The notes below the pieces were generated by a model. It was not told the DNA's origin. It worked only from the letters and a program-made list of their open reading frames with translations, and did not search any database. Of a stretch of DNA of 64,000 bases, positions 1-52,941 are shown one piece after another. This DNA comes from Sphaerolaimus hirsutus (taxonomy: Eukaryota > Nematoda > Chromadorea > Monhysterida > Sphaerolaimidae), in contig OZ038460.1 in the NCBI GenBank assembly GCA_964036195.1, forward strand, positions 9,179,504 through 9,243,503. The letters are read 5' to 3'. Each line of letters begins with the position of its first letter. Within the stretch, counting starts at the first letter, position 1. The position numbers and the translations under genes were made by a program.

Positions 1-3000
1 GATCGTTGTTCGAAATAATTCAGGCACATGGCATTTTGGTGTTGATAAGTACAAATAGTGTCACTTGGAAACATGATAGACAATTAGATGAACTTGATAA
101 TTTTAAAGAAAACAATTTTGATACACATTTATCAAGTAATGATGTTAGTATTGATACTTCCATTGCAATTAAAAGTGACACTATTTCATTGGGGCTAAAA
201 GACGAGACCAAAATCAGCCAAAATCATCAAAATACTGTTGATTCAACCGGTCTACTCACACGTGAAAATGGTGACTTTCCATTCCTATGGTTGATTTTGG
301 TAATAAATCTAAGCTTAGCGTTCGTAGAATATTCACATATCGACTTTTTGACACTTTTTTTGTCAGCTGGTATTTCGATATTCCTATATACATGGTTTAC
401 TGGGTCACCGTGGGGAGTGATCACTGCGAATTTATTTCCACGGGTGACGTTTTTTCAAATTTCTCAAATCTTTTTTCAAATTCTTTGTCAAATTCTTAAA
501 GAAATTTGTTTCTCAAAAAAACAATTCAAAACATTAAACCTCTTGACTGGACAAGTTAGGCGATACCTCATCGAGAGTGGGTTCTTTAAATACACACCTC
601 TCTGTAATGTTTGCATTTCTATATACATTGATAGATTTATTTACAATCTGATACATGTGTCGTTAAGGTCTGGTTTTAAACTGAATTTGGCAGATGAATG
701 GTGCTCGCATATGGACATTTTCAATTTTTTAAATACGATTATCTGTGTATTACTGCGCATATGGTTCCGTATAAATAGAATTTCTGAGGTATTTACTATA
801 ATTAGATATTTTATAATACGGAACATACTGTGGGTGAATTATATCGAGATGTCGTTTCTATATGGACACGTTTTTCAAATCATGTGCCGCAATTATAAAA
901 AAACTAGCTTTTTTTTGAAAAAAAATTTTAAAAAAAATTTTAAAAATATAAAAACAGCTTTTCGAGTAATTTATGGCACTGTGAAAATTATTCCGTTTAA
1001 ATATCCTTACATTTATTCGCACCTTAGAAGCATGGTTGATATACATGGGTTGCTCGGATGTGTTGGTTGCGTGCATTTACTAGCTAGAAAATCAACATGC
1101 ATACTTGCACTACTAATGAATTTTGTTATTAAAAACAAATATGTTAGTCTAGTATTGATATTTTTAATACAGGTTGATCCAGTCTCAGCAACTGGCATGT
1201 CATCCAACATAATACATTCAATTCCTGGAGCAATCTCGTTACTTGCATTGAGTATTCTCTATCAAAATACGCGGTGTCTTAAAGGCCATCTTAGCTCGCT
1301 ACTAGACACTATTCACACCTCAGGAGCAGAAATATTGTGCTTCACTGAAACACAATTTAGAAACGCTGCAGAAATATGTATGGTGGGTGGTTACACCGCT
1401 GAACATATCTTCAAGCAAGGTAGTGAAACAGGTGGTATCTCTATCTATCTTAGAAAAGGTATTAAGTATTCAGTAAACAAAGTATCTGATAAAGTATCAA
1501 ATAATATTCTAAGTATAAAATTATCAAATCACCCTATATTTGATACTTTGAAAGAAAATAAAGATAGACCGGACAGAAAATTGAATCTTGTGGTGGTATA
1601 TATGGAAAATAATGGTAAAATACTAAAATCTCGCGAATTCAGACAGCTCAACGCTCATATCATTGCGGAGCTTGAATCATGCATAAACAAAGGGCGCGTA
1701 CGAAATGAAGATACAATTATAGTAGGCGACTTCAATGGTCATATTGGAAATGATGATCTCGGCGTAGAGGGTAACACATCGGATATCAATGTGAATGGCC
1801 GCCTTATACGCCAATTTATATCCAGTACTGGCATCATGCCACTAAATAACAAATTCGAGGGACTATGGACCTATGCTCGATCAAATGCAAAGTCTCTAAT
1901 AGACATATGCTTCATGGATGGTATACTCTCATTAACAAAAGGGGTGGTCGATGAATGCGATGCTTATAGCAGAATTCAATCAGACCATAACGCCATCATT
2001 ATGACATTTGATTACATGCTCCCGCAAGAAATACATCATAGAAAGACTCTAAGACCAAAGACAGTAGAGGAAGAAGTGACATTCCAGGAAAAAATACGTG
2101 GGGTTAATGGTAACAATTATCACGACATCATATCTATCATTACAAGTGCGACTCAGATAGATTTACCGAATGATAAACCTCAAAGAGCACCCCTGGCTAT
2201 ACAAAAACAAGGAAAAACAATAGCCAAAATTAGACGCAAAATCAAAAAGTGTACTGACCCAAAATGCTTCACAGATCTTGATGTACAACTAAAGCAAGAA
2301 AGAAAGCAACTATCCAATATAAAAAGACACGATCGAAAGGAGAAGAAGGCTAAAGAAATCCTAAGACTAAGCAAAGCGAACGGGTCTGTTCCACTAAATG
2401 AACTCTACAAACGTGTTAATGCTATTAGATCAACTGGAGTAAATACGGTACACACTATACATAATAGTAAAGGAGAAGAGATTACCAACAGTGATGAAAT
2501 GAAAATGGAATTGAAGGCAGCATGGGATGTTGTTACAGCACCAAATCCTGGTGCAGATATTGACTCAATCGGTAAAACGGCAAAAGTATCATGCAGTGAA
2601 GGGCAGCTCGATAAATTACAATCGCCAATTACTATTATGGAGGTGGAAAAGGCAATAATCAAACTAAAGAACAACAAATCATCCGGAACGACATCAATAT
2701 ATCATGAACATTTAAAACTTCTGGAAGATGAGCATCAACTTCTTTTGCGAAACGTCTTTAACGAATGGCTAAATGGTGCAGAGATACCAGATGATGCCGC
2801 CATGTGCAAAATGATACTACTGCATAAAAAGGGCTCTAAAAGTGATTTGCGCAATTACAGGACATTGGGATTATCTTGCAATGTGAAAAAATTATATATG
2901 TCAATTCTAAACCAAAGACTTATTAGATGGCTTGAAGATACAAATGCTCTGACAGAGATGCAGGGGGGTTTCAGACCACACAGAAGAACACTGGACAATG

Positions 3001-4622
3001 TACAAATTCTAAAAACTTGTTACAATTATGCATGTGCTAATGGGAATGCTTTTGTAACATGTTTCCTAGATGCAGTAAAAGCATTTGACAGAGTGGATCG
3101 TGACAAATTATGGCAAAAAATGCTGGATATGGGAATACCAGACCGTCTGGTACTTGCAATCTCACGCGTCTATTCAAAAACACGAGCGATTATGACTTAT
3201 GGGGGATACGAGAGTGATATACTTGACTATCCGATAGGGGTTGCTCAAGGCTGTGCGTTGAGTCCGACCTTATACGCAATATATATACATGATCTAGCTG
3301 AAAAATTACTACATACAGGGATGGGGGCAAAGTGCGGCAAAAACATGCACAAGATCCCGGCATTGTTCTTTGCAGATGATATTGTGTTACTGGCCAGTAG
3401 AGACAGTGAGCTACAGAAATTACTCGATGTATTTGGGCAATGGGCCTGGACATGGAGTGTATCCATAAATACAAGCAAAAGTGAGGTGCTGAGATGGGGC
3501 GATAAAGAAATACCAAAAAAAGATTGGTATATACTAGAGGGAGACCCAGCGATAAACAAAAAAGGTGTGCTCAAAGAAACCGAGTCACTTCGATATCTTG
3601 GGGTGTTGATCAATAGAGGAAAAGATCCCTTTGAGAATCACAAGAGAAGATGTGTGTCAAAGATGATGCAATTATGTTCACTACCAATATCAGCGGCGAG
3701 AGATACGATAGCTCCATTATACAACGGAAAAATTACGTGGAAGGCCTACGTTGAACCAGGAAGTATGTACGGTGTAGAAGTTACAGGTTTAGACAAGAAA
3801 GATCTAACGGAAATGGACAAACTATATACACAGACAATGAAAAAAGTAGCTTCATTGCCAATTAGTAGTAGCAACGCTTCCCTAATTAATGATCTAGATG
3901 GGATACTGCCCTCAGATAAATACAGACAGCTTGTACTCACAAATGACAACTACATGCACCACATTGATAAGAGACGGTGGCTTGCACACGCATTAGAAGT
4001 TGACAAAGAGCTATGTGGCAACCCAAAGTTACCAATAGATAACACAAACTGCAGTCTAGTACAACAATGTAAGACTGCAATGAATTGGGAAATCGACACG
4101 TCAAATTTGAGAGCCACTTTAATCAAGCAACATATAGCCCTGCATAGGAAAGCCAGGATCCAACAAAAACTAAGGACGGAAAAAATATACAGTATAAGGA
4201 AGTGTGACCAAATAGAACTCAAGGGGGTACATTATGATGAAAAGCTTTGGTTTGCTGCAAGACATAACAGTCTTCGTTTATGGGATGGTAAACTTAAAAA
4301 AAATTGTCGACATTGCTCATCAAAATATGTTAAAATACCACTAAACACTCTACACGTTATGCATATATGCTCTGGTAATAAGGTGGAGAGAGAACAAATG
4401 GATAATATCTTATGCACAGTGCCGTGCAAATGGACAGAAGGGCTTTTACAATCAAATGTATGCCATGGGCACAGAAGGCAATGTGATGTGATGATACGGA
4501 AATGCCTATATGGCAAGATATCTTAACTAACAATATTGTGTGTGTTTAGAATGAGGAGAGGAGCGTAACCTCATAAGAGGTAGGGCTCCATATCTCGTTA
4601 ACTGTTTGATTTGATTTGATTT
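1..4622 (+). mobile_element. non-LTR (LINE) retrotransposon, 3' part
   Basis: The polyprotein is followed by a roughly 80-bp 3' UTR and then a short TTTGA microsatellite (4604-4622), the usual 3' tail of many non-LTR elements. The 5' end is off the window. A DIRS element begins only about 15 bp after the tail. Confidence 0.9.
3..4526 (+). CDS. LINE endonuclease-reverse transcriptase polyprotein, 5' end outside window
   Basis: One reading frame is open from the window edge to a TAA at 4526 (about 1,507 codons). There is no convincing ATG, so the 5' end probably lies upstream. An apurinic-type endonuclease runs from about residue 420 to 670: an N-T-R-C-L strand near 421, CFTETQ, GDFNGHIGN near 575 and SDHNAIIM near 658. 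The reverse transcriptase runs from about 900 to 1200, with AFDRVDRDKLW and the catalytic FADD near residue 1123. A C-terminal knuckle, CRHC followed by a His and a Cys, sits near residue 1435. These are the marks of an APE-class non-LTR element that nicks DNA and primes reverse transcription at the target. The first 400 residues are AT-rich and carry several hydrophobic stretches, which is unusual. The frame is intact, so the copy may be young. Clade not assigned. Confidence 0.93.
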   Translation, partial: SLFEIIQAHGILVLISTNSVTWKHDRQLDELDNFKENNFDTHLSSNDVSIDTSIAIKSDTISLGLKDETKISQNHQNTVDSTGLLTRENGDFPFLWLILVINLSLAFVEYSHIDFLTLFLSAGISIFLYTWFTGSPWGVITANLFPRVTFFQISQIFFQILCQILKEICFSKKQFKTLNLLTGQVRRYLIESGFFKYTPLCNVCISIYIDRFIYNLIHVSLRSGFKLNLADEWCSHMDIFNFLNTIICVLLRIWFRINRISEVFTIIRYFIIRNILWVNYIEMSFLYGHVFQIMCRNYKKTSFFLKKNFKKNFKNIKTAFRVIYGTVKIIPFKYPYIYSHLRSMVDIHGLLGCVGCVHLLARKSTCILALLMNFVIKNKYVSLVLIFLIQVDPVSATGMSSNIIHSIPGAISLLALSILYQNTRCLKGHLSSLLDTIHTSGAEILCFTETQFRNAAEICMVGGYTAEHIFKQGSETGGISIYLRKGIKYSVNKVSDKVSNNILSIKLSNHPIFDTLKENKDRPDRKLNLVVVYMENNGKILKSREFRQLNAHIIAELESCINKGRVRNEDTIIVGDFNGHIGNDDLGVEGNTSDINVNGRLIRQFISSTGIMPLNNKFEGLWTYARSNAKSLIDICFMDGILSLTKGVVDECDAYSRIQSDHNAIIMTFDYMLPQEIHHRKTLRPKTVEEEVTFQEKIRGVNGNNYHDIISIITSATQIDLPNDKPQRAPLAIQKQGKTIAKIRRKIKKCTDPKCFTDLDVQLKQERKQLSNIKRHDRKEKKAKEILRLSKANGSVPLNELYKRVNAIRSTGVNTVHTIHNSKGEEITNSDEMKMELKAAWDVVTAPNPGADIDSIGKTAKVSCSEGQLDKLQSPITIMEVEKAIIKLKNNKSSGTTSIYHEHLKLLEDEHQLLLRNVFNEWLNGAEIPDDAAMCKMILLHKKGSKSDLRNYRTLGLSCNVKKLYMSILNQRLIRWLEDTNALTEMQGGFRPHRRTLDNVQILKTCYNYACANGNAFVTCFLDAVKAFDRVDRDKLWQKMLDMGIPDRLVLAISRVYSKTRAIMTYGGYESDILDYPIGVAQGCALSPTLYAIYIHDLAEKLLHTGMGAKCGKNMHKIPALFFADDIVLLASRDSELQKLLDVFGQWAWTWSVSINTSKSEVLRWGDKEIPKKDWYILEGDPAINKKGVLKETESLRYLGVLINRGKDPFENHKRRCVSKMMQLCSLPISAARDTIAPLYNGKITWKAYVEPGSMYGVEVTGLDKKDLTEMDKLYTQTMKKVASLPISSSNASLINDLDGILPSDKYRQLVLTNDNYMHHIDKRRWLAHALEVDKELCGNPKLPIDNTNCSLVQQCKTAMNWEIDTSNLRATLIKQHIALHRKARIQQKLRTEKIYSIRKCDQIELKGVHYDEKLWFAARHNSLRLWDGKLKKNCRHCSSKYVKIPLNTLHVMHICSGNKVEREQMDNILCTVPCKWTEGLLQSNVCHGHRRQCDVMIRKCLYGKIS

Positions 4623-4636
4623 GGCGGCTTTTGTTG

Positions 4637-4804
4637 CATTTATGAGCCAACAGCTCACATACTAAATAAGAACGTAGGAATAATCCCGTAGGGAGCACTG
4701 CATTTACATGCGCATGACTGCGCAATTAATCCCATGGATTAAAAAGTAAGTGCAGTGAACCCCGGGCGGTATAAAACTACCGCGCAAACGCAGTAATAAT
4801 ATTC
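4637..4804 (+). repeat. left inverted terminal repeat of the DIRS element
   Basis: This 168-bp segment is the reverse complement of 10472-10637 with few differences, for example AGCTGTTGGC against AGCTGTTTGC in the complement. The outermost 38 bp (4637-4674) are also the reverse complement of 9628-9665. Confidence 0.95.
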
Positions 4805-4830
4805 TTTTTCTTCTGCAGCGACTTTTCTTC

Positions 4831-7800
4831 ATGCCTCGCCGTCGACGTTCCAGTAGTTCGTCGAGCTCAAGTTCGAACTCGAGTTCGGGCTCTTCGAGCA
4901 GTTCGTCTAGCAGCTCTTCGAGCAGCTCAGACAAGGACAAGTTGACAAAGCCAGCGCCCGTGTTGGAAAATCTGCCCGTGGTGGCAGAACCTACACAGGC
5001 CGGAGCTGTAGAACGGGATGTTCTAAGCGGAGTTCAATTGGATCCAAAGTTGGTACTTTGATCCATAATTTTGTGCAAAAGAGAATTGTGCTTCTCGCCC
5101 AAATGTTCCGCTGTTTTTTGCAGCGATGACCCGGACATCGATCCGGAGGACGATGTTCGGGTCGATCCCGAGATCGACGCCGCCGAACCTGCCGCCGACG
5201 CTGACAAAGCCATCGTGCCCGCCACGCCGGCAGATGCGCTGGCTCTCGCGCGCCGTTGCGGCGACGCGGTCGTCACGCCGGAGGTCATGCAGTGGCTCTC
5301 CGATTTGGGCGCCGGCGTTCGCATGTCGCCACAGCTCAACGCGGCGTACAAGCTCAAATACAAGCCGCTGAACAACGTTTTGATCGATGTCAGTTTTTTG
5401 AAGTTTCTTTCTTTTGGGAAATTTGAAACTTTTTGACAATTTGATCATTGTTACGTCCTTTTTGACGTCAGCTTTTCTGAAGTTTCAATTTTTGATACTT
5501 GAAACTTTTGACTTTGACTTTCTGAAATTTGTTTTCAAATTTTCAGACGGTGCCCAGACGCGACGAGCCATTCACGGAAGGTGGCAAATACGCCACTCCT
5601 TCTAAAGCCTCAATCGACGTGCACCATTTGAAGACCTTCAATGACAACTTATTCGAGTTGGACAAGGTCATGACGGAGATGGCGCGCATTCCCTTTATTT
5701 TGGGTGAGCGTTTTTTCATTCTCTCGTTTTTGAAACTTTTTTCAAACTTTTTTGCAACTTGAAAAAATGTTTCTAATGGGTTGTTTTTTCGACACGCAGG
5801 CGATCTGGCTGCCGTGCACAAAAACAACGCCAACTCCGACGCGTCCGAACACACCTTGGAGTCCACCCTGCAGCAGTACAAGATACTCGCCAAGGACACG
5901 TTTGAAGCCATGTCCTGGCTGGCTGCGAAAGGTTCACAGGTTCCTAAATTTTGTTCAATTTTCATATTTGATATTTTCAAATTTTGAAATTTTGTTGAAA
6001 TACCTGTTCTTTTTAGGCGCGTCTCTTCATCCACGGCATGCGTCGCATGCTCTGTCTGGCGCCGTGGTTCCGCAACATGTCCAAGCGCCAGGTGAAAGCC
6101 ATCAGCCGGGAGCTGATGCTTGTGGGGCTGCGCCAACGGACTTCTAAAGAAACGGGTTCGTTTCTTGTTAAAGTTCTGAATTTTTGGAATTTGAAATTTT
6201 GGAAAACTTTCTGAAGTTGGTAAAAACTTTTCAGACACCAAATTTCCCGATAAGAATTCGGCGCCCCCCTTGCTGTTTGGTTCGGCGCTGCTCAAAAAGA
6301 TGCGCAGGCGCCTCAAGAACAAGCGACGCACAGACAAAGTGGTCTGTTGTTTTGCTTATTTGTTCTTTCAAGTTGCCAATTTTTCAAATTTTGTCTTTTT
6401 TCAAAATTTTGAAAATAGTAATTGAATTAATATCGAACTTTCCCTTTCAAGGTGAGCGATCTCCTTGGCGCCGAGTCGAAGCGGATCGCCAAGCGGATTG
6501 GGCAGGCTGCCAAGCGCAACTTTCCGCAGAAGCAGCGCCGGCCGCAGTCCTTGCCAAACGCAATGAGCATGGACGGACGAAGGCAGGCTTACAAGGACCG
6601 CTACCAGGATTTCAGAGCCCAAAAGTTGGTTTTTTGGGTTCTTGTTTGTTCCTTGTGGTGGAAATCGTAATAGGTTCTGTTTTTGTAGGCTTGTGAAACG
6701 ATCAAAGTCCAAATTGATTCGCAAACAAAAGCCTGTGCCAAAGAAATCATTTAAATTTAATGAATTAAATTTAAATGTCAAATTTGTGGAATTAGATCTT
6801 CCCGAATGTGTAGCTGGAAGAACAAAATTTGCATTGCAAAATTGGAAATTGATTACATCAGATAGATGGGTTTTAAATGCCATTTCTGGGGCACCCCTTC
6901 TCCTGGCAAGAGAGCCAGTTCAAGAGAAACCAATTTTACCAATTCATTTTCCGGAAGAAACGGCTAAAATTGTGGACGAAAAAGTTGATGAATTACTTGA
7001 AAAAGGTGCAGTTACCGAAATTCATCATTCCAAAGCAACTTTTGTCACCAGAATTTTTATTGTGCATCAACCCTATAAAATCAGACCAGTTAATGATTTG
7101 GCTCCATTGAACAAATTCATTGATGCCCCTTCATTCAAAATGGAATCATTGAATGTTTTGCGCACCATCATTAGAGAGAATGATTTTTTGGCTAAAATCG
7201 ATCTCACGGATGCTTATTTTACGATTCCGATAAAAGAGTCGGAACAAAAATATTTGCAATTCTTTTGGGGTGGTGCGCTGTATGAATTCAATTGCATGCC
7301 CTTCGGGTTATCAACAGCACCATACATTTTCACGAAAATTATGGCACCTGTAGTGGCATTTTTTAGAGGGAAAGGTATTAGGTGTCTAATTTACTTGGAT
7401 GATTTGGGAGTTTTTTGTGAAGATTCACATAATCTCTCCATTCAGTTAGAATTCATCCTGGACACTCTAATTCATCTCGGATTCTCAGTTAACAAGAAAA
7501 AATGTCAACTGGATCCATCTCATGAAATGCAGTTTTTGGGGTTAATTGTTAATTCAGTTGACATGAAATTTCATGTGCCCGAAAACAAATGCATTGCAAT
7601 TCAGGAGAGGGCGTCTCAGTTATTGTGCGCTGACACAATAGCTTTACGCTCTTTGGCTTCTTATTTGGGACAGATAAATTTTGTGACACAGGCCTTGTTT
7701 GTGGGTGCAGCACATTGCAGAGAATTGCAATTTGCACTAATTGATGGACTGTCAGTTTCACAATCTTACAATCATCAGATTTCTCTGCCTTTAGAAGCCA

Positions 7801-8615
7801 GAAATGAATTGAGAATTTGGCTTTATCATCTCAAAGAAATGGACGGAAGGTCCATAGTTGAATCAGCCCCTTCATGTATCATCGAAACTGATGCATCTAA
7901 TTCAGGTTGGGGTGCTTGTCTCAATGGACAAGACATTCATGGTTTTTGGAGTGTTGATCAAAGGACATTCCATATCAATCATAAGGAATTATTGGCCATT
8001 CTCATTTCAATTCGGACTTTTAAATCTCAGATTGCTAGAAAGTCAGTTCTTGTCCAGTGCGATAATAGTACTGCCGTGGCTTATGTTAATAAGCGCGGGG
8101 GTACTCGCGGCAGGGAAATGGCCAGAACGGCCACTGCCATCTGGAAAGAATGTCTTGAAAATGAGATTTCTTTAATGGCTCAACATATTGCTGGCGTAAG
8201 CAATATAAGAGCCGATGCTTCTTCGAGAAAAAGATTCGAACCATCCGATTGGAAATTGGATGAAAAGATTTTTCATTCAATCACAGAAATTTGGGGACTT
8301 CCACAATTGGACCTTTTTGCTGTGTCTCATAATACGCAGCTAGAAAGATTTTGTTCACTTAGAGCTCATCCAGATGCTTTCGAAAAAGACGCTTTTTCTA
8401 TTGATTGGAATAGATTTGATCTATTGTACGCTTTTCCGCCACTTTGCTTGTTGGGCAGAGTGTTGCAAATGATAAGAAATTCAAGCGTACCTGTCATTTT
8501 GATTGCTCCAATGTGGCCTCGAAAATATTGGTTTCCGGATTTGCTTTCATTGTGCATTGATTTTCCAATCGCACTTCCAAAGATAGCTCATCTTCTTTCC
8601 AGACCGGATGGTTAG
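4831..8615 (+). CDS. DIRS gag-RT-RNase H, read through seven short introns
   Basis: Joining 4831-5048, 5124-5388, 5547-5703, 5800-5939, 6017-6155, 6235-6341, 6452-6624 and 6689-8615 gives 1,042 codons including the stop, with every junction GT-AG and in phase. Intron lengths are 75, 158, 96, 77, 79, 110 and 64 nt; the sixth donor could lie 3 nt earlier. The first seven exons encode gag: an RRRR plus poly-Ser start, an acidic stretch, then basic segments. Exon 8 is pol. RT shows PVNDLAPLN, MPFGLSTAPY and the catalytic YLDD (near nt 7398). RNase H shows ETDASNSGWG and a conserved HKE. The C-terminal part (8290-8600) resembles the Dam-methylase-like domain of DIRS-group elements, but with FPPL where an active enzyme has (D/N)PPY. 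The splice junctions are inferred from reading frame and need RNA data. Confidence 0.88.
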
Positions 8616-8668
8616 AATTCAGTTTTTTATCAATAAAATTTTAGATTTTCAAAAAATCTCATTTTCAG

Positions 8669-9625
8669 GACAGTTTCACTCAAGGGCTTTCACTCGAAGC
8701 TTCAGAAGTGGCAAAATGCTCCTTGGGTCAATCCACCTGGTCTCAATACCAGGTGGTCTGGAATCGCTGGTTATTGTGGTCTAAATCCACAAATTCCCAT
8801 ACCTTTTGCCCAACTGCTGCCCAGGTGGGCAATTTTCTGGCACACTTGTTCCACCAGAAATTAGCCTATAGTACAATAGCAGGTGCAAGATCAGCTTTGG
8901 CAACTATGTTGGCACCTAATGTAGGTTCAATTTTGACCGAAAGTATTTTGATCAAAAGAGTTTTGGCTGGTATTTACAAAGCCAATCCACCTACAGCCAG
9001 ATATAGTTCTATTTGGGATCCTCAATTGGTTCTCGATTTCATCAGATCAAATTGGTTTATCAATGATTCTTTATCCTTGATAAATCTGAGCCAGAAAGTT
9101 GTGGCATTGTTAGCCTTAGCCAGACCCGCTCGAGCGGCGGAATTGGCTTCAATCGATTTCAAATCGATCAACTTTTCCAAAGATTCATGTAAATTCAATT
9201 TACTCAGAATAACAAAGACGCAAAAATCGGGTCCTTTGAAAAGTTTTTCGATTCCCATTTTTGCTGAAGATGTGTCAATTTGTCCAGTCAGAAATTTGAA
9301 ATTTTATTTGGAAAAGGTCATTCAATTTAGACCGGACAGTTCTTTGGCTTGTTTCATAACTTCAAAAAAGCCATTTAATGATGCTTCCAGCGATACTTTA
9401 CGTCGCTGGTTGCTCAATACCCTGAAATTCGCTGGTATTAGCGATAATTTCACGGCACACAGTTTCAGAGCCGCTACAGCTTCAAAAGCTATAGCGACGG
9501 GGACACCAATTTCACAAATTTTGTTGGCCGGCCAATGGTCTCAAAGATCCTCGGCCTTTGCCAAACATTATCTCAAAGATATTGAACAGTTGCCACCTCA
9601 TAACTTGCCAAAGTTGGTCTTGTAA
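8669..9625 (+). CDS. DIRS tyrosine recombinase
   Basis: The product has about 318 residues and is a site-specific tyrosine recombinase, predicted to integrate the circular cDNA of the element. Visible active-site residues are the first Arg in RPARAAELASI, a Lys-containing beta turn (KTQKSGPLK), the HSFR box (H-x-x-R) and the nucleophile Tyr in HYLKDIEQLP near the C-terminus. The frame has no ATG before its conserved N-terminal part. It begins right after a splice-acceptor-like TTTTCAG (8668). A donor-like GTTAGA lies at 8611 beside the RT stop, but joining 8610 to 8669 does not keep the frame. How it is translated (its own transcript, a different splice or a small indel in this copy) is unclear. 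The stop at 9625 is 3 bp before the internal complementary region. Confidence 0.93.
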   Translation, partial: DSFTQGLSLEASEVAKCSLGQSTWSQYQVVWNRWLLWSKSTNSHTFCPTAAQVGNFLAHLFHQKLAYSTIAGARSALATMLAPNVGSILTESILIKRVLAGIYKANPPTARYSSIWDPQLVLDFIRSNWFINDSLSLINLSQKVVALLALARPARAAELASIDFKSINFSKDSCKFNLLRITKTQKSGPLKSFSIPIFAEDVSICPVRNLKFYLEKVIQFRPDSSLACFITSKKPFNDASSDTLRRWLLNTLKFAGISDNFTAHSFRAATASKAIATGTPISQILLAGQWSQRSSAFAKHYLKDIEQLPPHNLPKLVL

Positions 9626-9627
9626 CT

Positions 9628-9733
9628 CGTTCTTATTTAGTATGTGAGCTGTTGGCTCATAAATGTCAATTTGTGTGAGCAACTTTGTTGTGAAACACAA
9701 ATAATTTTATGAGCAAACAGCTCACATACTAAT
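9628..9733 (+). repeat. internal complementary region (ICR) of the DIRS element
   Basis: 9628-9665 is the exact reverse complement of the left terminus 4637-4674. From about 9663 to 9732 it is the reverse complement of the right terminus, about 10611-10682. The region therefore spells the junction that would form if both ends were joined in a circle, the hallmark DIRS template for completing the element ends. Confidence 0.96.
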
Positions 9734-9790
9734 GGCCCTAAATTTTAAATTTTACCCAACCCACCCAATTTCGTTTTTTCCAACTTTCAG

Positions 9791-9896
9791 TTCGTACGGT
9801 GGCGCGCCTCAGCGGCAGAACAATCAACAACAGCAGCCCGGCCCCTCTGGTTACAAAGGACAGAGAAAACCCGCTGCGAAAAATCAGAAAAAATGA
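9791..9896 (+). CDS. terminal gag exon of the DIRS element (Gln/Lys-rich tail)
   Basis: After the acceptor TTTCAG an open stretch encodes a Gly/Gln/Lys-rich tail (NNQQQQPGPSGYKGQRKP) ending at TGA 9894-9896. Joined to gag exon 7 at 6624 it completes an Asn codon and stays in frame, giving a 434-residue gag-only product. The basic, Gln-rich composition fits an RNA-binding gag C-terminus. It lies downstream of the recombinase, where no other gene claims it. Confidence 0.75.
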
Positions 9897-9945
9897 TTTT
9901 TTCGTTTTTGTGAAAGTTTTTGATTGGGTCTGGTTTGGAGTTTTA

Positions 9946-10062
9946 TCGGTATTGGGGGGCTCCGCCCCCCAAACCCCCCGTTTTCATTCGTGGATATCAA
10001 TTTAAATTGTTTGAAAATTTTATTGGATATTGGGGGGCTCTGCCCCCCAAACCCCCCGAATG
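9946..10062 (+). repeat. pair of GC-rich hairpins inside the DIRS 3' region
   Basis: Two near-identical units (TATTGGGGGGCTC, then T or C, then GCCCCCCAAACCCCCCG) lie about 75 bp apart. Each can fold as a GGGGGGCTCCGCCCCCC stem. They fall between the gag terminal exon and the right terminal repeat. Function is unknown; they could be a 3' UTR structure. The rest of 9897-10471 is AT-rich without features I can name. Confidence 0.7.
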
Positions 10063-10471
10063 TTCAGAAATTTGAATTTTTCTTCGGTTTTAAATTTCCG
10101 ATCTTTTCAAGTTTCAAATTGAAAATTTAAATTGATATCCAATCAAAATTTTCGAAGTCGTCATTTTTGCTATAATTAGAAATGCACCGTTTTTTCCTCT
10201 TGCCGGAGATCAAAAATGGTGATGTGTGGTAGTCGGTAGACGTACAACATTTTTTGTTCAAACGTTTTTTCCGCGTGTGATGACGGGTTATTTGCAAAAT
10301 TTTTATTTGCACTTTTTCCAATTTGTTGGTTTTTTACCTCAAATTTTTGGAATTTCGATATTTCATCAGTGAAATAAAGTCAATCTTGGATTGAAAATAC
10401 AATTTGATTATAAATCAAGAGCAATTTAGTGTGAAACACAAAGCATTCGAAGTCGCTACAGAAGAAATTAG

Positions 10472-10680
10472 GAATATTATTACTGCGTTTGCGCGGTAGT
10501 TTTATACCGCCCGGGGTTCACTGCACTTACTTTTTAATCCATGGGATTAATTGCGCAGTCATGCGCATGTAAATGCAGTGCTCCCTACGGGATTATTCCT
10601 ACGTTCTTATTTAGTATGTGAGCTGTTTGCTCATAAAATTATTTGTGTTTCACAACAAAGTTGCTCACACAAATTGACAT
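10472..10680 (+). repeat. right inverted terminal repeat and terminus of the DIRS element
   Basis: 10472-10637 mirrors the left repeat. The last roughly 43 bp (to 10680) are unique to the right end and are matched, in complement, only by the internal complementary region. Confidence 0.94.
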
Positions 10681-10739
10681 TTTTCGACGTCTGCGTACGT
10701 TTCAGACGACAATTTTGTACTTGGTTTTCAAAAATTTTC

Positions 10740-22251: not shown

Positions 22252-25200
22252 TCAATGCAAAAAACATTGATCTTCGTTAGACTCTGCGAATGGCATAGCA
22301 TTGTGGCACCCATCTAAACTGTGGTATCTGCCCCTTATTGCATAAGCAGCCATTTTTGGTTGACGATTTCTTGTCAAAATACCCTTCCTGTTTCCAGCAA
22401 CACGTTTCACCCCTGCGAAAGCGAAATACTAACTGAAATGAACGTTTTGAAAATATTTTATTTTAATTATATATCTATTTATGGTCTGGCTTGCATGAAT
22501 GTGCATAAAATTTAGATGGTTACATGTCTACAAAAAATGCTATTAGTTCATTCATGCTTCTAAATAATTGCATGTCCCTATCTCAATCTATTTTCGCACC
22601 TCAGCAAGTGACAAAATAGATTTTTTATAAATATTTGCGAAAAAAATTACGAATCGTAATCAAGTAAATGTGACAGTCAACGAACTATTTAAGCTCGCAG
22701 TTTTTGGCAAACTACAACTTTCACATGCAAGTTGTCACTTTTCCATCACTTGAAAGTCTGCGGGATTGGCCCCAAGTTAAACCGCTCAATAAAAATAGCC
22801 ACCAACCGTCATGGGTCATAAAATCGTGAAAGTTCCAGCACATTTCACCCGCAAGAAATGATGCATTGAGTGCTTTGAGCTGATCAAAAGCTTTCCACGT
22901 TTGCTGCAACACGTTCACTTGATAGGATTCAGTGAAATCCATCGTTGGGGGGTCCTGTTTTAGCGATGATTGCATTTTTGCGTTTAATTGTCATTACAAT
23001 GTTTTCAACATACAGCATTCACTCCATTCATTGATCCGGCTCCATATTCTGTCATAATTATTGGCTTATTGAACTTATCGTGCCATTGCGTCAAATCCCA
23101 GGCCAAGTGTTTTGCTATGGTTTGTTGGTATCCCATGTCTATGTACCAGCCGTAGTAACGATTGACACAAATTATATCGATCATGTCGGCCTGAAATTGT
23201 GATTTTGAGGTTAAGAAGACAATCTTGAAAGCGAAGTTTCGAAAGCACCGTCTTGTCATTAGATGGCCCCGTCGGTCCGTACACAATGGTCACTGGTCGC
23301 GTATCATCCATCGAGTGTGCTAATTTGATCAGTTCGCTGTAAATATGTCATTGAATAAGCACTTTTACACCCGATACACTCAAAATCTTTCAATCTTCAA
23401 CCATTCATTCAAGCGCACCTGAAGTATTGCCTTGAGCTGGTCTGGTAAGTCTGCGGTTCGTTGGCAAGACTCCAAGCGATCACGCTGGGGTGGTTGAAGT
23501 CCCTGTTGATCATGTCCGTCAGCATCTCTTTGTGGGTAGCTAGATTTTCTGGTGTGAAGTGCCTGTGGTGTAAGGAAAGTGGGTGATTTTTAAAAACTTA
23601 TTTATTTTGAATTTTTATCATGTCAATGTATTGCTGTAAGCGAGGCCGCAAAACGATTTTGCACCTTGCTTAAGAAACTCATTGGCACACCACGGGTAGG
23701 AAAGGGAGGGGGGGTTGAATAAAATTTCTTTATGGACACTTATTTGGACTTCTCAACTTTCAAAAGTCAGTGTCTAACATGAACTTATCGCATTTCTTAA
23801 TATTTTCCCCCACCAAAAAAAATCATGCAAGACTGGACTTGTCGACTTTTAACCCGAGTCTGTGTGGACTTGTCAACTTCTCGTTCCATTTTTGTGTGAT
23901 TTGTTGTCAATGTGCTACACTTCAAAAACGGGGCAAATACGGCTAGAACAAATTGTGGAAAAACGGCAAAATTGTGTGGAAGCGTGAGGTTTCTGGGCCT
24001 AACGATATTCTACCGATTTTGATTTTGAATCGAGTCTAAGGTATTTTAAATTGGGTGCCTCAATTTCAGTATAAATATGAACCTGAGTCCCACTCCCGGA
24101 GTCTCCGACACAATCACAATGCCCCGTTTATCTGCTTCCTGATAGCGCTCTTCCGCATAGGGATAGTGCGAGGTGCGGAAACAGTTGGCGCCGAGCCACT
24201 CCAACATGTTGAAATCTTTGACCGTCATCACTGGGTCGTGGCCCCGGCCGCGCACCTGCGTATTGGCCAGGGCAGACTAGTTTATGGATAAATTTTGGAA
24301 ACTGATAAATCAGTTTTAGACGCTTTTGAGTTTACCGGAATGACCCCATCAGGGGTAACCTAGAGTTTGACCCTCCGAGGGGTTAGATAGGTAGAATGGG
24401 GATTGGTTTACTTGGATCGGGTGGGCGCGCCAGCGCCCTCCCTCGCTGCCGAGGGAGGGCGCAAGCGACCCACCCATAATATGGTCAGACACACCAAAAT
24501 GCGGAAATCGCAAATTTAAAATCGCAATAACTTCGGAACGCAATGCGCTAGTTCAGAACCGACTGCACCATTAAAAAGCCCGTGTCGAAAAGTACCACCA
24601 TGCAAATTTTCAGATCCAACGGTGGAGTTCGGAGGAAGTTATTACGCATTTTCTTTTTCAAGTAGTGTTCTTGTTGTTGTTGTTCTTGTTCTCCCGAAAA
24701 TCTTCAAACTGCAATAACTTCCTTGAAACACGACCGATTTTCATGGTTGATGGCTCATTTGAAAGAGAATATGATGCCATTTCCTATTTTCGGGATTTTT
24801 TTTCACAGGCTCCGCCCACTTTGGTACGGTATCTGTTTGAAATTTTCAAACCTCAATAAATTTAAAATTTGAATACAAATGGGGCAATAAAAAAAATTTG
24901 TTGATGTGTGCCATGACTAGAGCTTTCAAATGAGCCAATTTTTGGCAATTTTGGTACAGATTTACAAAAGTTATTCAAGTTTGCTTATTTTGGGTAAAAT
25001 GCGCAAACATGCCTGAACTACTGCTTCATGTGATACTGAGCATGTGACCTTGCATGCTGATTACTATCAGGTCATAAATGTCTAGTGGTTGATGTCAAGT
25101 CAAATGTCAAGTTATAAATGTCAAGTCAAATGTCAAGTGATAAATGTCAAGTGATAGATGTCTAGTGATAAAATATTAAGTGATAAAATATCAAGTCAAA

Positions 25201-28200
25201 TATCAAGTGATAAATGTCAAGTGGTAGATTTCAAGTGAAATGTCAAGTGATAATTGTCAAGTGATAAATTTCAAGTGAAATGTCAATTGATAAATGTCAA
25301 GTGATAGATAGTTATAAAATATCAAGTGATAAAGTATCAAGTCAAATTTCAAGTGATAACTTTCAAGTCAAATGTCAACTGATAAATTTCAATTGAAATG
25401 TCAAGTTTAATGTCAAGTGATAAATGTCATGTCAAATGTCAAGTCAAATGTAAAGTGATAAATTTCAAGTGAAATGAAATGTCAAATGTCAAGTCAAATG
25501 TCAAGTGACACATTTCAAGTCAAATGTCAAGTGACAAATTTCAAGTGAAATGTCAAGTTTAATGTCAACTCATAAATGTCAAGTCAAATATCAAGTCATA
25601 TGTCAAGTCAAATTTATAGTGATAAATGTCAAGTCAATCAAATTTCAAGTGATAAATGTCAAGTCAAATCTCAAGTGAGAAATGTCAAGTCAAATGTAAA
25701 ATTTAATGTCAAGTGATCAAATATCAAGTCAAATGTCAAGTTATAAATGTCAAGTCTAAAGTCAAGTCAAATGTCAAGTGATAAATGTCAAGGTGAATAT
25801 ACAGTGATAACTTTCAATTGAAATGTCAAGTCAAATGCCAAGTGATAAATTTCAAGTGAAATGTCAAGTAATAAATTTGAAGTGAAATGTCAAGTCAAAT
25901 GTCAAGTTAAATGTCAAGCTTAATGTCAAGTGATAAATGTCATGTCAAATGTCAAGTTTAATGTCAAGTGATAAATTTCAAGTGAAATGTCAAGTTTAAT
26001 GTCAAGTGATAAATGTCATGTCAAATGTCAAGTAATATGTCATGTAACAATTTTCAGGTGATACCTGTCAAGTTGTTTATGTCAAGTGAAAACTATCAGG
26101 TGAAAAAATGGCAAGCAATTCATGTCAAGTCATAAATATCAAGTGATGCCATTCAGTCATAAATGTCAAGTGGTTTATGTCAAGTTATTGTCAAGTGGGT
26201 AATTTCAAGTCATAAATGTCAAGTGATAACTTTCAGGTTCTAAATGTCATGTTGAAAATCTTTTGAATCTTAATATTTGGCTTCTTCTCGACTATAGATT
26301 GTATTGCTCAGTGCCACATTTGACATTTGCTTGATTTGCAATAACTTATAAAATTTGGGCCTGTGGCCCTCAAAAAGAAGTATATCCCATAAAAAATGGC
26401 TAAAGCCAACAAAAAGTGGACGCTGCACCTAAACATGTGTATGCTTTTGAATGCACAAAAGTAATATATCATATACCATGCCATTTTCTTATCGAGCTAT
26501 CAAAAGATGTATATCAAGGTAAATGTATACAAATGCTAATAATATAGGCTATCAACACAGCAAACTGCATCACAAGAAACAATTTCACCAAACTTTTGCA
26601 TGGCAGCATGAGCTTTTTGTATCTTTAATGATTGCAGCACTTTGACACAGCTCACACTGCCATGCAAAAGTTTGGTGAAATTGTTTCTTGTGATGCAGTT
26701 TGCTGTGTTGATAGCCTATATTATTAGCATTTGTATACATTTCCCTTGATATACATCTTTTGATAGCTCGATAAGAAAATGGCATGGTATATGATATATT
26801 ACTTTTGTGCATTCAAAAGCATACACATGTTTAGGTGCAGCGTCCACTTTTTGTTGGCTTTAGCCATTTTTTATGGGATGTGAAATAACAGCAGTTGGTG
26901 GAGATTGGAAGTGGTTCATTTTGGTAAACTCAAATGTGTGATAAACAGATTATAAACCAGTTTCCAAAGTTTCGGCCGTAAACTAGTGTTTTGAGTGACT
27001 ATTACACTGGGAACATTACTTTTCATGGCTTAATGATCTGACGCAGTATTGTAAAAAAGACCAATCCTCTGAGGTTAGAATAAAAGATAAATATTTGCAA
27101 TGGCGTCTATGAAGAACATGTCTCAGTATTTGGTTAAACACTGTCAAACGATACTTACGTCTGTGTCTTCGTGCATGCCAAAACCTTTGCAGTAGAACGG
27201 CTTGTCATTGATGTACAGTGTGTTGTTGTCCCATTTCACAGTTCTGAAACCGAACGGAATTCTGTGCAGGTCGACCATATGGTGGCCGGTTTCGTCGAAA
27301 AGAGCGACCTGTGCAAATTATTTATGTTGATATTTATGAAAATTAATTGTAGGGATTATTCTACAATTTTTACCTCGAACATGTAGAGATATCCATATTT
27401 ATTTTGAAACTCGTTTTTGTCATAACTCCTCGGCTCCCATTTTATTGCGCTGGGCTGATCAAGAAATCCACTGTAGTATGGTTCGTTCTGATTTGTAGAC
27501 AAATTTGGCCTCTGCCCCAGTTTTTTCAGTGGCATTTTGAACATTTCAGTTTGCAGATGGATCGTTTTCGGATCGTAAATAGCTACGTAGCCCATTTTAG
27601 GTCTTTTTGGACCGCTCGTTGTTATTTCATATTCCAGGCGACCTGCGAGAATTCGTTGTCGCTATCAGTATTTTATAGTGTGGCAAATCAACGTTGCGAA
27701 ACATATATTTATCCTCGAATAACTGCCTCAAAAGTTTTTTAAATCTTTTTCTCATAAATTTGACGAGTGAGTCATTCGATCTTATCATCCGGATTGGGGA
27801 AATATTTACCCAGAGTGGTTGCAAAAGCCGGGAAACACTGCGAGTGGAAAAACGGTGGTACTCTCATGTATAGTTACCCAATTTCCCCCGAGTCGCTTAC
27901 ACTGCGTAGTTATTAAGTATCTACATTCAAAAATATACGGTACACACCATCGACTCCATTGATCTGTGGCTTCAGCTTCACATTCGATACGTGATAGTCC
28001 GCATATCTGGTGTAAAGCACCACCGATCTCAGGATGCCAGCATAGTTGAAAAAGTCAAAATCAGGGGTATGTTCAAAGAAACCCTCTGGGTACCTGCGGA
28101 CAGAGACCAATTTTGATCTGAACAACAGGTTAAACAGAAATACCGTGTTTGCTTGAATAATTCCACCTGGGGGATTTTTTCGTCACACTTTTTTTTAGGG

Positions 28201-47534: not shown

Positions 47535-47543
47535 GCTTGGAAC

Positions 47544-48902
47544 CATAGGGGATTTTGGGGGTAGCATTTTGGGGGAGGGGGGTCGGCCCCAGAGCACGTG
47601 TTTATAACTCGGGAACGGCTTATGGAAAATTTTCATATTTGGATATAATATGGTTACAGGTCGGGGCTAATTACAAGTCCTAGGGAATTTTCCTATGACC
47701 CCCCTGACTGGAGATAGGGTGGGTCTATAAAAAGGTGGTCATTTCCAGAATTTTTGGGTGTCACCCAGAACATGCAAACTTTTAACATCAATAACTCTAT
47801 TATTTCTGGGCGGATTTGGATCGTTGAACACTTAAAATGATCGGGACAACCTGCAGATCCCATTTTTGTTGTTGTGTTAGTGATGTCTAAATTCGGTATG
47901 CCGATTTGACCCGGTTTTTTAACACAAAAACATAAATTTATCTAAACAAGCTATCCTATAGTCTAGACAATGGGAAATCATTTAAAACAGAAATGAGTTC
48001 AATATCTTATTCCGATCAAAAGTTACAGCGCTTCAAACTCCCCCCCCCATCCACATAAATAACCACATGAAGCATGATGCATGCAACTTCAAAACACCAC
48101 ATCCGCACCATTTCTCAGCCGATTTTCACCAATGAACACTTCAAATGATCAGAATAACATGATGATTCCATTTATATGCACAGACTATCTGTATATTTCA
48201 TTAGATTTCCGATACAATAAAATAATGCGAACTCATGAGTGAAATTTTCACAATGAAAATGGACACAGGTTAACCGAGACTAAAAACGATATCTCCATGT
48301 TATTCTGATCACTTAAAGTGTTCATTGGTGGAAATCGGCTGAGAAATGGTGAGATATGGTATTTTGAAGTTGCACGCATCATTCTTCATGCAGTTATTGA
48401 TGTGAAAAGTTTGAAGTGCTATAACTTTTGATTGGAAAGAGATATTGAACTCATTTTTGTCTTGAATGAATTCTCATTATCTAAACTTTACTATAGCATG
48501 TTTAGATAAATTTTATTTTCGTGTTGAAAAACTGGGTCAAATTGGCATACCTAATTTAGACATCACTAACACAACAACAAAAATTGTATCTGCACGTTGT
48601 CCTGACCATTTTAAGTGTTCAACAATCCAAATCCGCCCAGAAATAGTCGAGTTATTGATGTTCAAAATTTGCATGTTCTGGGTGACACACAAAAATTCTG
48701 GAAATGACCACCTCTTTATAGACCCACCCTATCTCCAGTCAGGGGGGTCATAGGAAAATTCCCTCGGACTTGTAATTAGCCCTGACCTGAAACCATATTA
48801 TATCCAAATATGAACATTTTCCACCATACCATTCGCGAGTTATAAACACGTGCTCGGGGGCCGACCCCCCTCCCCTAAAATGCTACCCCCAAAATCCCCT
48901 AT
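47544..48902. mobile_element. fold-back transposon with long terminal inverted repeats and 9-bp duplication
   Basis: Arms of several hundred bp: ATAGGGGATTTTGGGGGTAG at the left mirrors the right end, and matching continues through CACGTGTTTATAAC, TGACCCCCCTGACTGGAGAT and TAGTGATGTCTAAATT. GCTTGGAAC flanks both sides (47535-47543 and 48903-48911). Long terminal repeats with a 9-bp duplication fit a Mutator-like fold-back element. No transposase seen. Confidence 0.85.
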
Positions 48903-48973
48903 GCTTGGAACACCCGGATTATTATTTTTGCGCGGTAGCCGCACCATTCACACGAAGCCTATGCTGATACCAT

Positions 48974-50201: not shown

Positions 50202-50621
50202 GTTGACAGCAATGTTGCATTTTGGACATTTTCTAGCCGAATAGAATGCGTGACACGACTGTTTGCGATTAAATTGTCATCTATCTACATATTTATAAAG
50301 TTTTGTCTGATAAATGCCTATGCTTTTTAAAATGGAATGGGTTTTGAAGCGTGTGCAATAAAGCCGGCTCCGGAACTTTTCTGTGGACCCATTCCATCTC
50401 ATTTTACAGCGCTGGCGTCCCTCATCAAAGAGGGGGGGGGGGAGTTTTCCCAGTCAGCTGACAGAGGGAGTTATTCGAGGGGGACTTATTCGGGGATTTA
50501 CCATAGCTAAGTATTTCGGAAATTGTGGAAATCAATTCTATACGGTGCAAAGCAAAATTTTTGCGTTTTTCTGTCCTAGTATTTTGCATTGATGATCCTA
50601 TTGATAATATCGGTTTATAGT

Positions 50622-51753
50622 AAACACCTTCCCGGTCACGTCCGGCACCCTATTTTTGATTGTACTTGTGACATCCTATCTCCAGTTCTAGGGCGCGCCA
50701 GAAGCTGAAACTTGGGCGAGATATTGGCGCAACCCCCCCTCTACTTCGCATGACTTGGGGGCGTCGCGGCGACCCCTTACAGGGTGGGTCGCGCTAAGTA
50801 CAAAATTTTTATTGGCTGTTTTGGTGTCCCGCACAGGTCCGGCACCCACTTATTTCTGAGTTGTGGGAGGGGTATAAATTTAAAATTTTGTGGATGTGTT
50901 ACCAACACCCCTCCCCTACTATACACTATTCAATAATGTGAGATTAATGTGAAAAATTTCTAAAAAATTATCTGTTTCTCTAAAAAAAACCACCTCCCAA
51001 TAGATGGATAACAAAAAAATTCACTTTTTGGAACTTTATTATTAGACACTTTAAGAGCTGGTTTACAATACTTTAAAGGGAAGGGTTGGATGTTCAAAGT
51101 TATGTAAAGAACCATACCTCTAAAATGCCTGCATTGCAAAATTTACTTGGGGGGGAATTCCATGACATCATAATGACATCATTGCAGGAACAAAATTTAC
51201 AAAATTTACACTTTGAAATTCCCCCCAAGTCAATTTTGCAATGCAGGCATTTTAGAGATAAGGTTCTTTACATAACTTTAAACATCAAACCCTTCCCTTT
51301 AGAGTATCGTAAACCAGCTTTTCAAATGTCTAATAAAAAAGTTCAAAAAAGTGATTTTTTTGTCATCCATCTATTGGGGGTGTTTGTTAGAGAATAAGAT
51401 AATTTTTTAGAAATTTTTCACATTGATCTCACATTATTGAACAGTGTATAGTAGGGTAGGGTTGTCGGTAACACACCCCCAAAATTTGAGATTTATACCC
51501 CTCCCACAGCTCAGAAATAAGTGGATGCTGGACCTGTGTGAGACACCAAAAAGCCAATAAAAATTTTGCACTTAAGGTGGCCCACCCTGAGAGGGGTTGC
51601 CGCGACCCCCCCCCCCCCCAATTCATGCAAAGTAGAGAGGGGTTGCGCCAATATCTCCCCCAAGTTTCAGCTTCTGGCGCGCCCTAGAACTGGAAATAGG
51701 ATGTCACAAGTAAAATCAAAAATAGGGTGCCGGACGTGACCGGGAAGGTGTTT
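50622..51753. mobile_element. 1.1-kb fold-back element with very long arms
   Basis: AAACACCTTCCCGGTCACGT at the left mirrors ACGTGACCGGGAAGGTGTTT at the right. Matching continues inward through GGGCGCGCCAGAAGCTGAAA, the C-runs and AATGCCTGCATTGCAAAATT to a centre near 51190, so arms are about 500 bp. No convincing target duplication and no coding region. Confidence 0.85.
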
Positions 51754-52941
51754 ATATTGGTGGTAAAAATGCGTCGCATTTTGCAACTGCTTTTGATGAT
51801 CTATGCAAATTAAACACAGGGAAGTAATTGTCACTAGCTAGCATGTCAATTCATCACATTTCCAGAAGTGGCTTCGCGCAGCATCTGAATTCAGGAAATA
51901 AATTCTATGGAACGCTTCATACATAGCAATGCAGGTCTACACATGCAGATAGCACATTTGGGTATCTCCTCACGTGGTTGACGTCACAATAATGCGTATA
52001 CTAAATCATGCATGCATATGTGCACTTTATGTATAACTTTTTATGTACGCGATGACGTGATTTGCGGACAGTTTGTGTGCTCTGAACCGAATGTGACAAG
52101 ATGGAAAAAAAACAGCTTTTACTCATGCACACATTGGGAGAGGGCCCGAGGTAGTATTGGCTTGCGTGTGAGCCATTTTCGGTTTGGCGTCGCCTCTGCC
52201 CGCCGCTGCAGCCGCGACTCTACAGCTGCAAGTATGTGTCCATTAGCATTTAGTCACCGCGGCACTATTGCTCCCGTAGTTTAGCTACGCGGTGGCTCAA
52301 CTGCAACGCGGCAATGATGAATCTCAGAGTTTTATCAGGCAAATTCATAGTGGTTTCGGATTTCGTGGATACATTCTTTTTAATGGCGAACAGTGCCAGT
52401 TTTTCACGTCACAGCCTTTGGTATGAAGGTGTGACACTCTGAATGAATTTTTCATTTTTATCATTTTTATTTTTACGTTTTGAATCACAAGCTAAATAAT
52501 TTTTACTTTTACGTTTTGAGTTAATATTTAGTTACAGTGGAATTTTTAATGATAAGATTGGATACATGCGCGAAAATTCCCGCCCGCGATATTCCCCACT
52601 AGACGGATCATGCATAAATCATTGCGCAGAAATTGCACCATATTTATAAAACTCTGACACTCATTTATTATTATGTACTATTTATACTGAACTCACAGAA
52701 AGATCTCAACTGAAAAACCTCACTCATCATCTGGCAACGCGACGGAAAATCAATCGTCAATTTTTCTCAGCTCGCGCTGAAAAAAGAAAACTTGACGCCC
52801 TCGGGCAACTGTCTTTTGCAATGTTATTTGCTTCAGTAGGAAACAACCGTATATGAATTGTTTGTTATGGGGATAAATAATTGAATGGTGATGGATGGGT
52901 GAGGTGGCAAGGTTCTCGGATTTGTCATATGCATGTGGCTG
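51754..52941. other. intergenic stretch without recognised features
   Basis: Mixed-composition DNA. Short open frames (for example 52012-52284) show no family features or splice context. Confidence 0.5.

Follow-up and report, generated by a model that had tools for sequence, protein, structure and literature searches.

A Likely Splice Switch at the End of gag

The window, a stretch of 64,000 nt from the nematode Sphaerolaimus hirsutus (assembly GCA_964036195.1, contig OZ038460.1, positions 9,179,504 to 9,243,503 of the forward strand), contains a DIRS1-like retrotransposon spanning positions 4637-10682, in which the genes for reverse transcriptase (RT)-RNase H and tyrosine recombinase (YR) as well as the internal complementary region (ICR) lie between a splice donor at the end of gag and a short coding exon on the far side of the ICR. 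We consider it probable that pol and the ICR are in this way placed inside a facultative last gag intron, whereby the splice choice would yield either Gag with a separately encoded C-terminal tail or a Gag-RT-RNase H fusion, and the unspliced RNA, which bears the ICR, would be copyable. A gag splice switch is thus the likely meaning of the layout. This reading builds on the observed exon frames and phases, on their conservation, on frame-specific selection in the tail, and on the presence of the donor where Gag and RT form one frame.

In the window copy, seven gag exons upstream of RT join in one frame, and the phase-2 donor of the last one at 6625 (AAA|GTTGGT) fits two acceptors. Splicing to the acceptor at 6688 (TTTTTGTAG) would remove a mini-intron of 64 nt (6625-6688) and give Gag-RT, and splicing to the acceptor at 9790 would remove the facultative intron of 3166 nt (6625-9790), which holds RT, RNase H, a putative methyltransferase (MT), YR, and the ICR, and give Gag plus tail. 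The predicted spliced gag, consisting of exons 1-7 and the tail, encodes 434 aa without an internal stop. The coordinates of the donor and of both acceptors had been put forward in a preliminary description of this DNA and were found to be exact and in phase. The same description had placed a tail exon beyond the recombinase and the ICR, and this is where it lies: the ICR (9628-9732, forward strand, as for the other parts of the element) sits between YR and the tail, is followed by a stretch ending in the tail acceptor (CCAACTTTCAG, 9733-9790), and the tail exon itself (9791-9896) enters in phase 2 and has 34 codons (SYGGAPQRQNNQQQQPGPSGYKGQRKPAAKNQKK) after the split codon, ending in TGA at 9894-9896.

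Comparison of 25 Copies and Scoring of Splice Sites

The comparison set comprised 25 copies, namely the window copy, located on contig C16, and 24 fetched stretches, all from one genome (348 Mb, 762 contigs). A query with the RT exon yielded 70 matching stretches in this genome including that of the window, some of which represent fragments of a single copy. Fetched from these were the 20 ranking next in score (L009-L028) together with four less similar stretches (L029-L032, 44-48% identity), with 44 of the 70 matching stretches staying outside the comparison. The window copy and L009-L028 are referred to as the window's clade (21 copies). In an RT tree of 74 rows, all 25 copies form one branch with a support of 100/100, whereby the first split in the family separates L029-L032 from the other 21 copies. 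The family's neighbors in this tree are P0002 and P0015 (support 94/82). Four DIRS-like RT relatives from other sources (L033-L036) were used as outgroups. The gag comparison covered exons 2-7; exon 1 was left out, and exon 7 was unrecognized in several distant copies. Splice sites were scored with a matrix built from 40 gag donors and 40 acceptors, the tested copy being excluded in each case, and donor percentiles refer to the GTs in RT coding sequence.

The Tail Beyond the ICR Is a Coding Exon Under Purifying Selection

A fitting acceptor 3' of the ICR, the conservation of which the preliminary description had named as a check, is present in 22 of the 25 copies, and in the window's clade it lies 146-182 nt past the projected YR end. 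Intact tail frames of 32-69 aa that end in a stop occur in 21 copies. Among the other four, L010 has the tail acceptor followed by a shifted frame, the sequence of L015 diverges within the YR end, and L019 and L021, in which the match to YR is interrupted, have 3' ends outside the tail comparison. The scan for tail acceptors listed phase-2 entries only and candidates were picked by their place and ending (by eye in L029-L032), so the shared phase of the tail acceptors is partly built in. Two checks are free of this choice of phase. By score alone and in any phase, the tail acceptor outranked all of the 11-27 surrounding AGs in 13 of the 22 copies and never came lower than fourth, with the acceptors lying in the range of the 74th to the 100th percentile (40-acceptor matrix). 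The second check is the selection acting on the three frames. For six chosen within-clade pairs (232 codons), the pooled ratio of nonsynonymous to synonymous differences (pN/pS) was 0.44, with a bootstrap range of 0.35-0.55 and none of 1000 resamples reaching 1; single pairs ranged from 0.13 (window and L009) to 0.82 (L030 and L032). In nucleotide alignments of the same six pairs, pN/pS was 0.50 in the tail frame (226 codons) compared to 1.20 and 0.94 in the other two frames. A conserved frame with Ka/Ks below 1 had been set beforehand as the test of the tail, and this is what was found; the tail is a coding exon under purifying selection.

It could be argued that the region behind the ICR is instead conserved as a DNA or RNA signal and that its open frame is incidental, since it adjoins the ICR, the replication signal in the model for such elements (PMC3266345, in the part covered). 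We regard this as very improbable in view of the frame-specific selection just described, the stop-ended tails in 21 copies, and the fact that the sequence varies widely between clades with its make-up kept. This make-up is basic and rich in Gly, Gln, and Arg (Arg plus Lys 0.20, Gly 0.16, hydrophobic residues 0.17), and the composition suggests that the tail probably functions in nucleic-acid binding. The ends of the putative gag open reading frames (ORFs) in the distant L033, L035, and L036, which are gag by position only, are nearer to the tail in composition than the YR ends are (Arg plus Lys 0.29, hydrophobic 0.02-0.16); there the basic end stretch forms part of the putative gag ORF itself. 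Since the layout is found on both sides of the first split in the family, it looks ancestral to the sampled copies.

The Donor Is Kept Where gag and RT Form One Frame

All 25 copies carry a GTNNGT at the end of gag, as found by a pattern search favoring this motif. The gag-end donors reach a median at the 80th percentile (25 sites). In 13 of the 25 copies (L011-L013, L016, L019-L022, L025, and L029-L032), gag and RT form one open frame across this donor, and eight of these 13 are without a nearby phase-2 mini-intron acceptor by the filter used. Among the 13 unbroken copies the TNN codon encodes different residues (F, L, Y, S, C, W) and the GT is kept, as would be expected of a splice site rather than of a coding constraint. 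The clearest cases are L029 and L030, the gag-end donors of which lie at the 94th and 100th percentile and the tails of which are intact; neither a mini-intron acceptor nor an RT/YR acceptor was found in them. That the donor is kept where gag and RT are one frame fits a switch between splicing and not splicing.

In the remaining 12 copies gag and RT are not one frame. In eight of them a candidate acceptor for a mini-intron lies 58-76 nt away from the donor, and for four (L009, L014, L015, and L018) none was obtained with the filter. The broken frames fall in three clades of the tree, the first with the window copy, L009, and L010, the second with L014, L015, L017, and L018 and the unbroken L016 among them, and the third with L023, L024, and L026-L028. 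From this distribution, the unbroken gag-RT frame looks like the older state.

The resulting model would work as follows. A splice from the donor at the gag end to the acceptor behind the ICR would produce Gag with a short basic, Gly/Gln/Arg-rich tail, whereas retention of the intron in copies with the unbroken, presumably older frame would produce Gag-RT-RNase H; in copies with a broken frame, including the window's branch, Gag-RT would be obtained after removal of the mini-intron. Unspliced RNA would keep the ICR and could therefore be the form that is replicated, and the gag-to-tail spliced RNA would be without it. That the gag-to-tail splice occurs, that it is used as a switch of the ratio, and what the tail does, we infer from the sequence. 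The preliminary description had taken the layout for a splicing switch that would control the ratio of Gag to Gag-Pol in place of frameshifting; this interpretation may hold and is supported in part, by the conserved tail exon with its acceptor and by the kept donor. If the model is true, Gag and Gag-Pol would differ by an exchanged C-terminal module and not by truncation, with the tail of Gag encoded beyond the enzymes.

Several points weigh against such a switch. The gag-end donors were sought with patterns such as GT..GT preceded by an open frame in phase 2, the choice among several candidates fell on that at the aligned end of gag, and the L010 donor was placed by hand, so that the counts of donor motif and phase are partly built in. 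The donor of the window copy is weak (32nd percentile), and 4 of the 25 gag donors fall below the 60th percentile. Five of the 13 unbroken copies (L011, L016, L025, L031, and L032) do have a candidate mini-intron acceptor, which gives the donor there another possible use. The gag donor could, in the window's clade, also pair with the YR acceptor, and a phase-2 GT at or shortly before the YR stop in all 18 window-clade copies with a readable YR end offers the tail another possible partner, from which YR could splice over the ICR to it. Gag before the donor is already basic (Arg plus Lys 0.19, hydrophobic 0.30), hence Gag would be basic without the tail as well, and the argument from make-up is weak for Gag. 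The label gag itself rests on position and structure; outside the family no gag relative was found, and within it the gag of L031 scored only E 2 with the gag profile. Finally, a single genome is the source of all 25 copies.

Some of these points would also suit the view that Gag mostly results from Gag-RT being cut or terminated early, with the long splice as a rare by-product, given that the 13 unbroken copies read Gag-RT without a splice at the gag/RT border and that the window donor is weak. A rare by-product, however, would hardly keep the tail frame under selection, and a Pfam scan confined to the RT and YR exons, the gag exons excluded, matched no protease domain. We therefore hold this view to be unlikely.

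The YR Acceptor and the Donor at the YR End

In the window copy, the exon for RT, RNase H, and the putative Dam-like MT (6689-8610) is followed by an RT/YR intron (8611-8668) with the donor RPDG|GT, which leaves phase 1, and the acceptor TTTTCAG, behind which the YR frame extends (8669-9625). RT ends at RPDG|GT or similar, leaving phase 1, throughout the window's clade. Reading on from the acceptor in phase 1 gives endings like GSxHPLVKSRLxLxxWxxSG, which RT proteins from other sources have in the same kind but unsplit (GExHPLxxxLxLxxWxxSG), whereas reading in phase 2 gives YR. The pol and YR frames overlap in relatives, in which one exon can be read in both phase 1 and phase 2, and in L029-L032 the overlap exists without an intron. 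Direct splicing from RT to YR in the YR frame was considered and rejected, because the RPDG|GT donor leaves phase 1 and YR needs phase 2.

The YR acceptor takes phase 2 in 18 of 21 window-clade copies, chosen by eye where several stood. The exceptions are L025, which reads phase 2 but is split by an insertion, L016, which has no clear acceptor, and the window copy, which is out of phase. The insertion in L025 (about 4815-6110) is longer than 1 kb and lies inside the YR frame shortly after its start. The YR start of the window copy (8669-8690) falls 61 nt short of that of L009 and does not match its acceptor in phase, so this copy probably cannot make YR. Overall, in the window's clade the phase-2 gag donor is compatible with all three acceptors (RT, YR, and tail), and splicing to the YR acceptor would make Gag-YR a possible third product there. 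A tentative extension of the splice switch, to which we give clearly less than an even chance, would have one gag donor pick among three phase-2 acceptors (RT, YR, and tail) to yield Gag-RT, Gag-YR, and Gag-tail, with splicing separating translated from copyable RNA.

The preliminary description had called the tail a private exon of Gag, which may not hold, given the phase-2 GTs at the YR end. Among the 18 copies concerned, these GTs are of the types GTNNGT (11), GTAAGC (3), and GTAATC (2), with two weaker or other ones. The site in the window copy is AAA|GTTGGT (9613-9618, 33rd percentile). In L029-L032, a phase-2 GT stands near the YR stop in only one of four (GTAAAT), and none was found in L030-L032. 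Over 19 sites, the YR-end GTs have their median at the 42nd percentile.

If the tail were the C-terminus of the recombinase, the splice to 9791 would start from the YR end and span the ICR, and the gag donor would serve the RT or YR acceptors only. The regular presence of the YR-end GT in the window's clade favors this, as does the outgroup L033, in which YR ends in a short basic stretch. It is at odds, though, with L029-L032, which all keep the tail and the gag-end donor and of which one has the YR-end GT. The YR-end sites also score lower than the gag donors, with the medians given above, and outscore them only in L016, L017, and L020, and in the window copy by one point. Furthermore, the last 30 aa of YR (14 copies) are unlike the tail, with Gly 0.01 compared to 0.16 and hydrophobic residues 0.40 compared to 0.17. 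A tail belonging to YR only is therefore quite improbable in our view.

It appears much more plausible, if still a little short of an even chance, that the tail is shared, i.e., that Gag and YR (or Gag-YR) both end in it and that the tail-spliced mRNAs all lose the ICR. All joints of the window's clade would suit this, since the gag donor, the YR acceptor (18 of 21), the YR-end donor (18 of 18), and the tail acceptor are in phase 2. On the other hand, a coded ending K-x-V can explain the YR-end motif in many copies, the YR-end donors score weakly, and the GT was not found in L030-L032. A shared tail leaves the distant copies unexplained, which keep the tail and the gag donor, three of the four without a YR-end GT. 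With Gag alone or with both proteins ending in the tail, the ICR lies within the intron, so that every tail-spliced mRNA would lose the replication signal; the layout hints at how translated RNA could be kept free of the ICR.

Relation to Known Elements

By what means DIRS elements express their three genes, which overlap in part, and attain an excess of Gag without the frameshifting of long terminal repeat (LTR) elements is, to our knowledge, an open question, and the family offers a concrete and testable model of DIRS gene expression with conserved splice sites. Foamy viruses make Pol from a spliced RNA and not by frameshifting; in contrast to them, the long splice would here remove pol. Drosophila copia is an LTR element with integrase, and we know of no conserved Gag domain encoded beyond its pol and of no ICR in it. 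Unlike in copia, the exon behind pol here provides a conserved tail, in a YR element and on the far side of the ICR. The likeness lies in the splicing that removes pol: in copia, 2950 nt, almost the whole of pol, are removed by alternative splicing, which gives rise to a Gag RNA (PMC3735527, in the part covered), an outcome predicted here from sites and frames. In the plant Ty1/copia elements BARE1 and EVD/ATCOPIA93, splicing likewise generates a subgenomic RNA for Gag out of one gag-pol frame, whereby BARE1 removes 104 nt to reach a stop and EVD couples splicing to early polyadenylation; the parts covered of the two sources (PMC3735527, PMC8892269) make no mention of a Gag exon 3' of pol. If the splice switch holds, the copia principle would extend to a second retrotransposon order.

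DIRS elements are described with three ORFs, with pol and YR frames overlapping in half of 28 described elements (PMC3266345, in the part covered). The window element resembles the DIRS1-like ones in its RT-RNase H and YR, its inverted terminal repeats (ITRs), its ICR with a right extension, and the pol/YR overlap in its relatives. It differs from the described three-ORF elements in that gag has six introns besides the facultative one and in that an exon predicted to belong to Gag follows the ICR on its 3' side. The main text of PMC3266345 contains no word that starts with intron, splic, or exon, splicing is mentioned only in general terms in the covered parts of PMC4157794, and PMC5633606 and PMC5890265 describe DIRS elements without such a layout in the parts covered. 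Among the titles and abstract openings listed from the open-licence part of PMC, there was no paper evidently on introns or splicing in DIRS gag. The preliminary description had stated that no element with this layout was known. For DIRS this agrees with the open-licence literature, in the parts covered, in which none is listed, but the principle is known from copia; it is the layout that is not.

Gag Exon Model

The gag exons of the window copy are exon 1 at 4831-5048 (beginning with ATG, Arg-Ser rich, leaving phase 2, with the donor AAA|GTTGGT), exon 2 at 5124-5388 (leaving phase 0), exon 3 at 5547-5703 (phase 1), exon 4 at 5800-5939 (phase 0), exon 5 at 6017-6155 (phase 1), exon 6 at 6235-6341 (phase 0), and exon 7 at 6452-6624 (phase 2), separated by AT-rich introns of 75-158 nt. 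The introns are at the same places in the copies wherever exons 2-7 could be aligned. The intron between exons 2 and 3 is precisely missing in L014-L018 and that between exons 6 and 7 in, e.g., L011-L013, the exons being contiguous in each case. This precise presence and absence supports the exon model, as real introns that come and go would behave in this way. Single gag introns are absent from some copies while others stay, which represents intron turnover inside a retrotransposon.

A single-sequence search for gag homologues over 5354 candidates yielded none at E 0.1 or better, and scans of viral contigs revealed no relative. When a gag profile from 15 copies was run against 97 proteins of the RT search, the four outgroup frames, and the frames of L029-L032, only L030, L029, and L032 scored below E 0.001; besides L031, the weak scores were those of P0012 (E 3.1) and L033 (E 8.5).

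Element Architecture and Neighboring Sequences

The element is DIRS1-like, its parts agreeing with the description in the covered part of PMC3266345. RT and RNase H were matched within 6690-8612 (Pfam RVT_1, 1.8e-23; RT_RNaseH, 2.1e-07), followed by a Dam-like MT match (PF05869, E 0.0032, at 17.6 bits below the cutoff of 28.1), a domain that is also listed for several RT relatives, e.g., P0006 and P0018. The YR frame matches Phage_integrase in Pfam (3.6e-07) and shows weak Cre matches (E 0.02 to 0.2). Pfam matched no DDE-type integrase in the RT and YR exons, and the terminal repeats are inverted and not direct LTRs. The left terminus with its ITR occupies 4637-4804, of which 4639-4804 pairs with 10472-10637 (166 nt, 99% complementary); the right ITR reaches to 10637 and is followed by the right extension to 10682 (10472-10682 together). 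Of the ICR, 9628-9665 pairs with 4637-4674 on the left, and 9661-9732 with 10611-10682, i.e., with the right ITR and its extension.

In the interval from the tail exon to the right ITR, an AATAAA stands at 10373-10378. That such a signal is conserved behind the tail was nevertheless rejected, since it occurs within 100-900 nt in 15 of 22 tail-bearing copies and its places vary. The same interval contains two copies of a hairpin of the GGGGGGCTCCGCCCCCC type (9941-9980 and 10019-10058); a blastn comparison with 20 copies gave matches to GGGGGGCTCCGCCCCCC-like stretches in 11, and these are a possible signal of the 3' untranslated region.

The outgroup elements L033-L036 were found among contigs of prokaryotic genomes, in metagenome-assembled genome (MAG) contigs labeled Parachlamydia and Breoghania. 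Long inverted repeats are present in L033, L034, and L036, the three that were examined, and the four are probably eukaryotic contamination of bacterial MAG assemblies.

Elsewhere in the window, a 1507-aa open frame on the forward strand (3-4526), which runs in from the window start and matches RVT_1 (2.9e-29) and Exo_endo_phos_2 (4.8e-07), belongs to a non-LTR retrotransposon and ends about 110 nt before the left terminus of the DIRS element. Short diverged repeats built around a TGTCAAGT core form a dense array at 25074-26099. Nested long inverted repeats, including ones of 316 nt at 92% and 116 nt at 97%, are located at 47541-48906 and 50621-51754 and are perhaps foldback elements.

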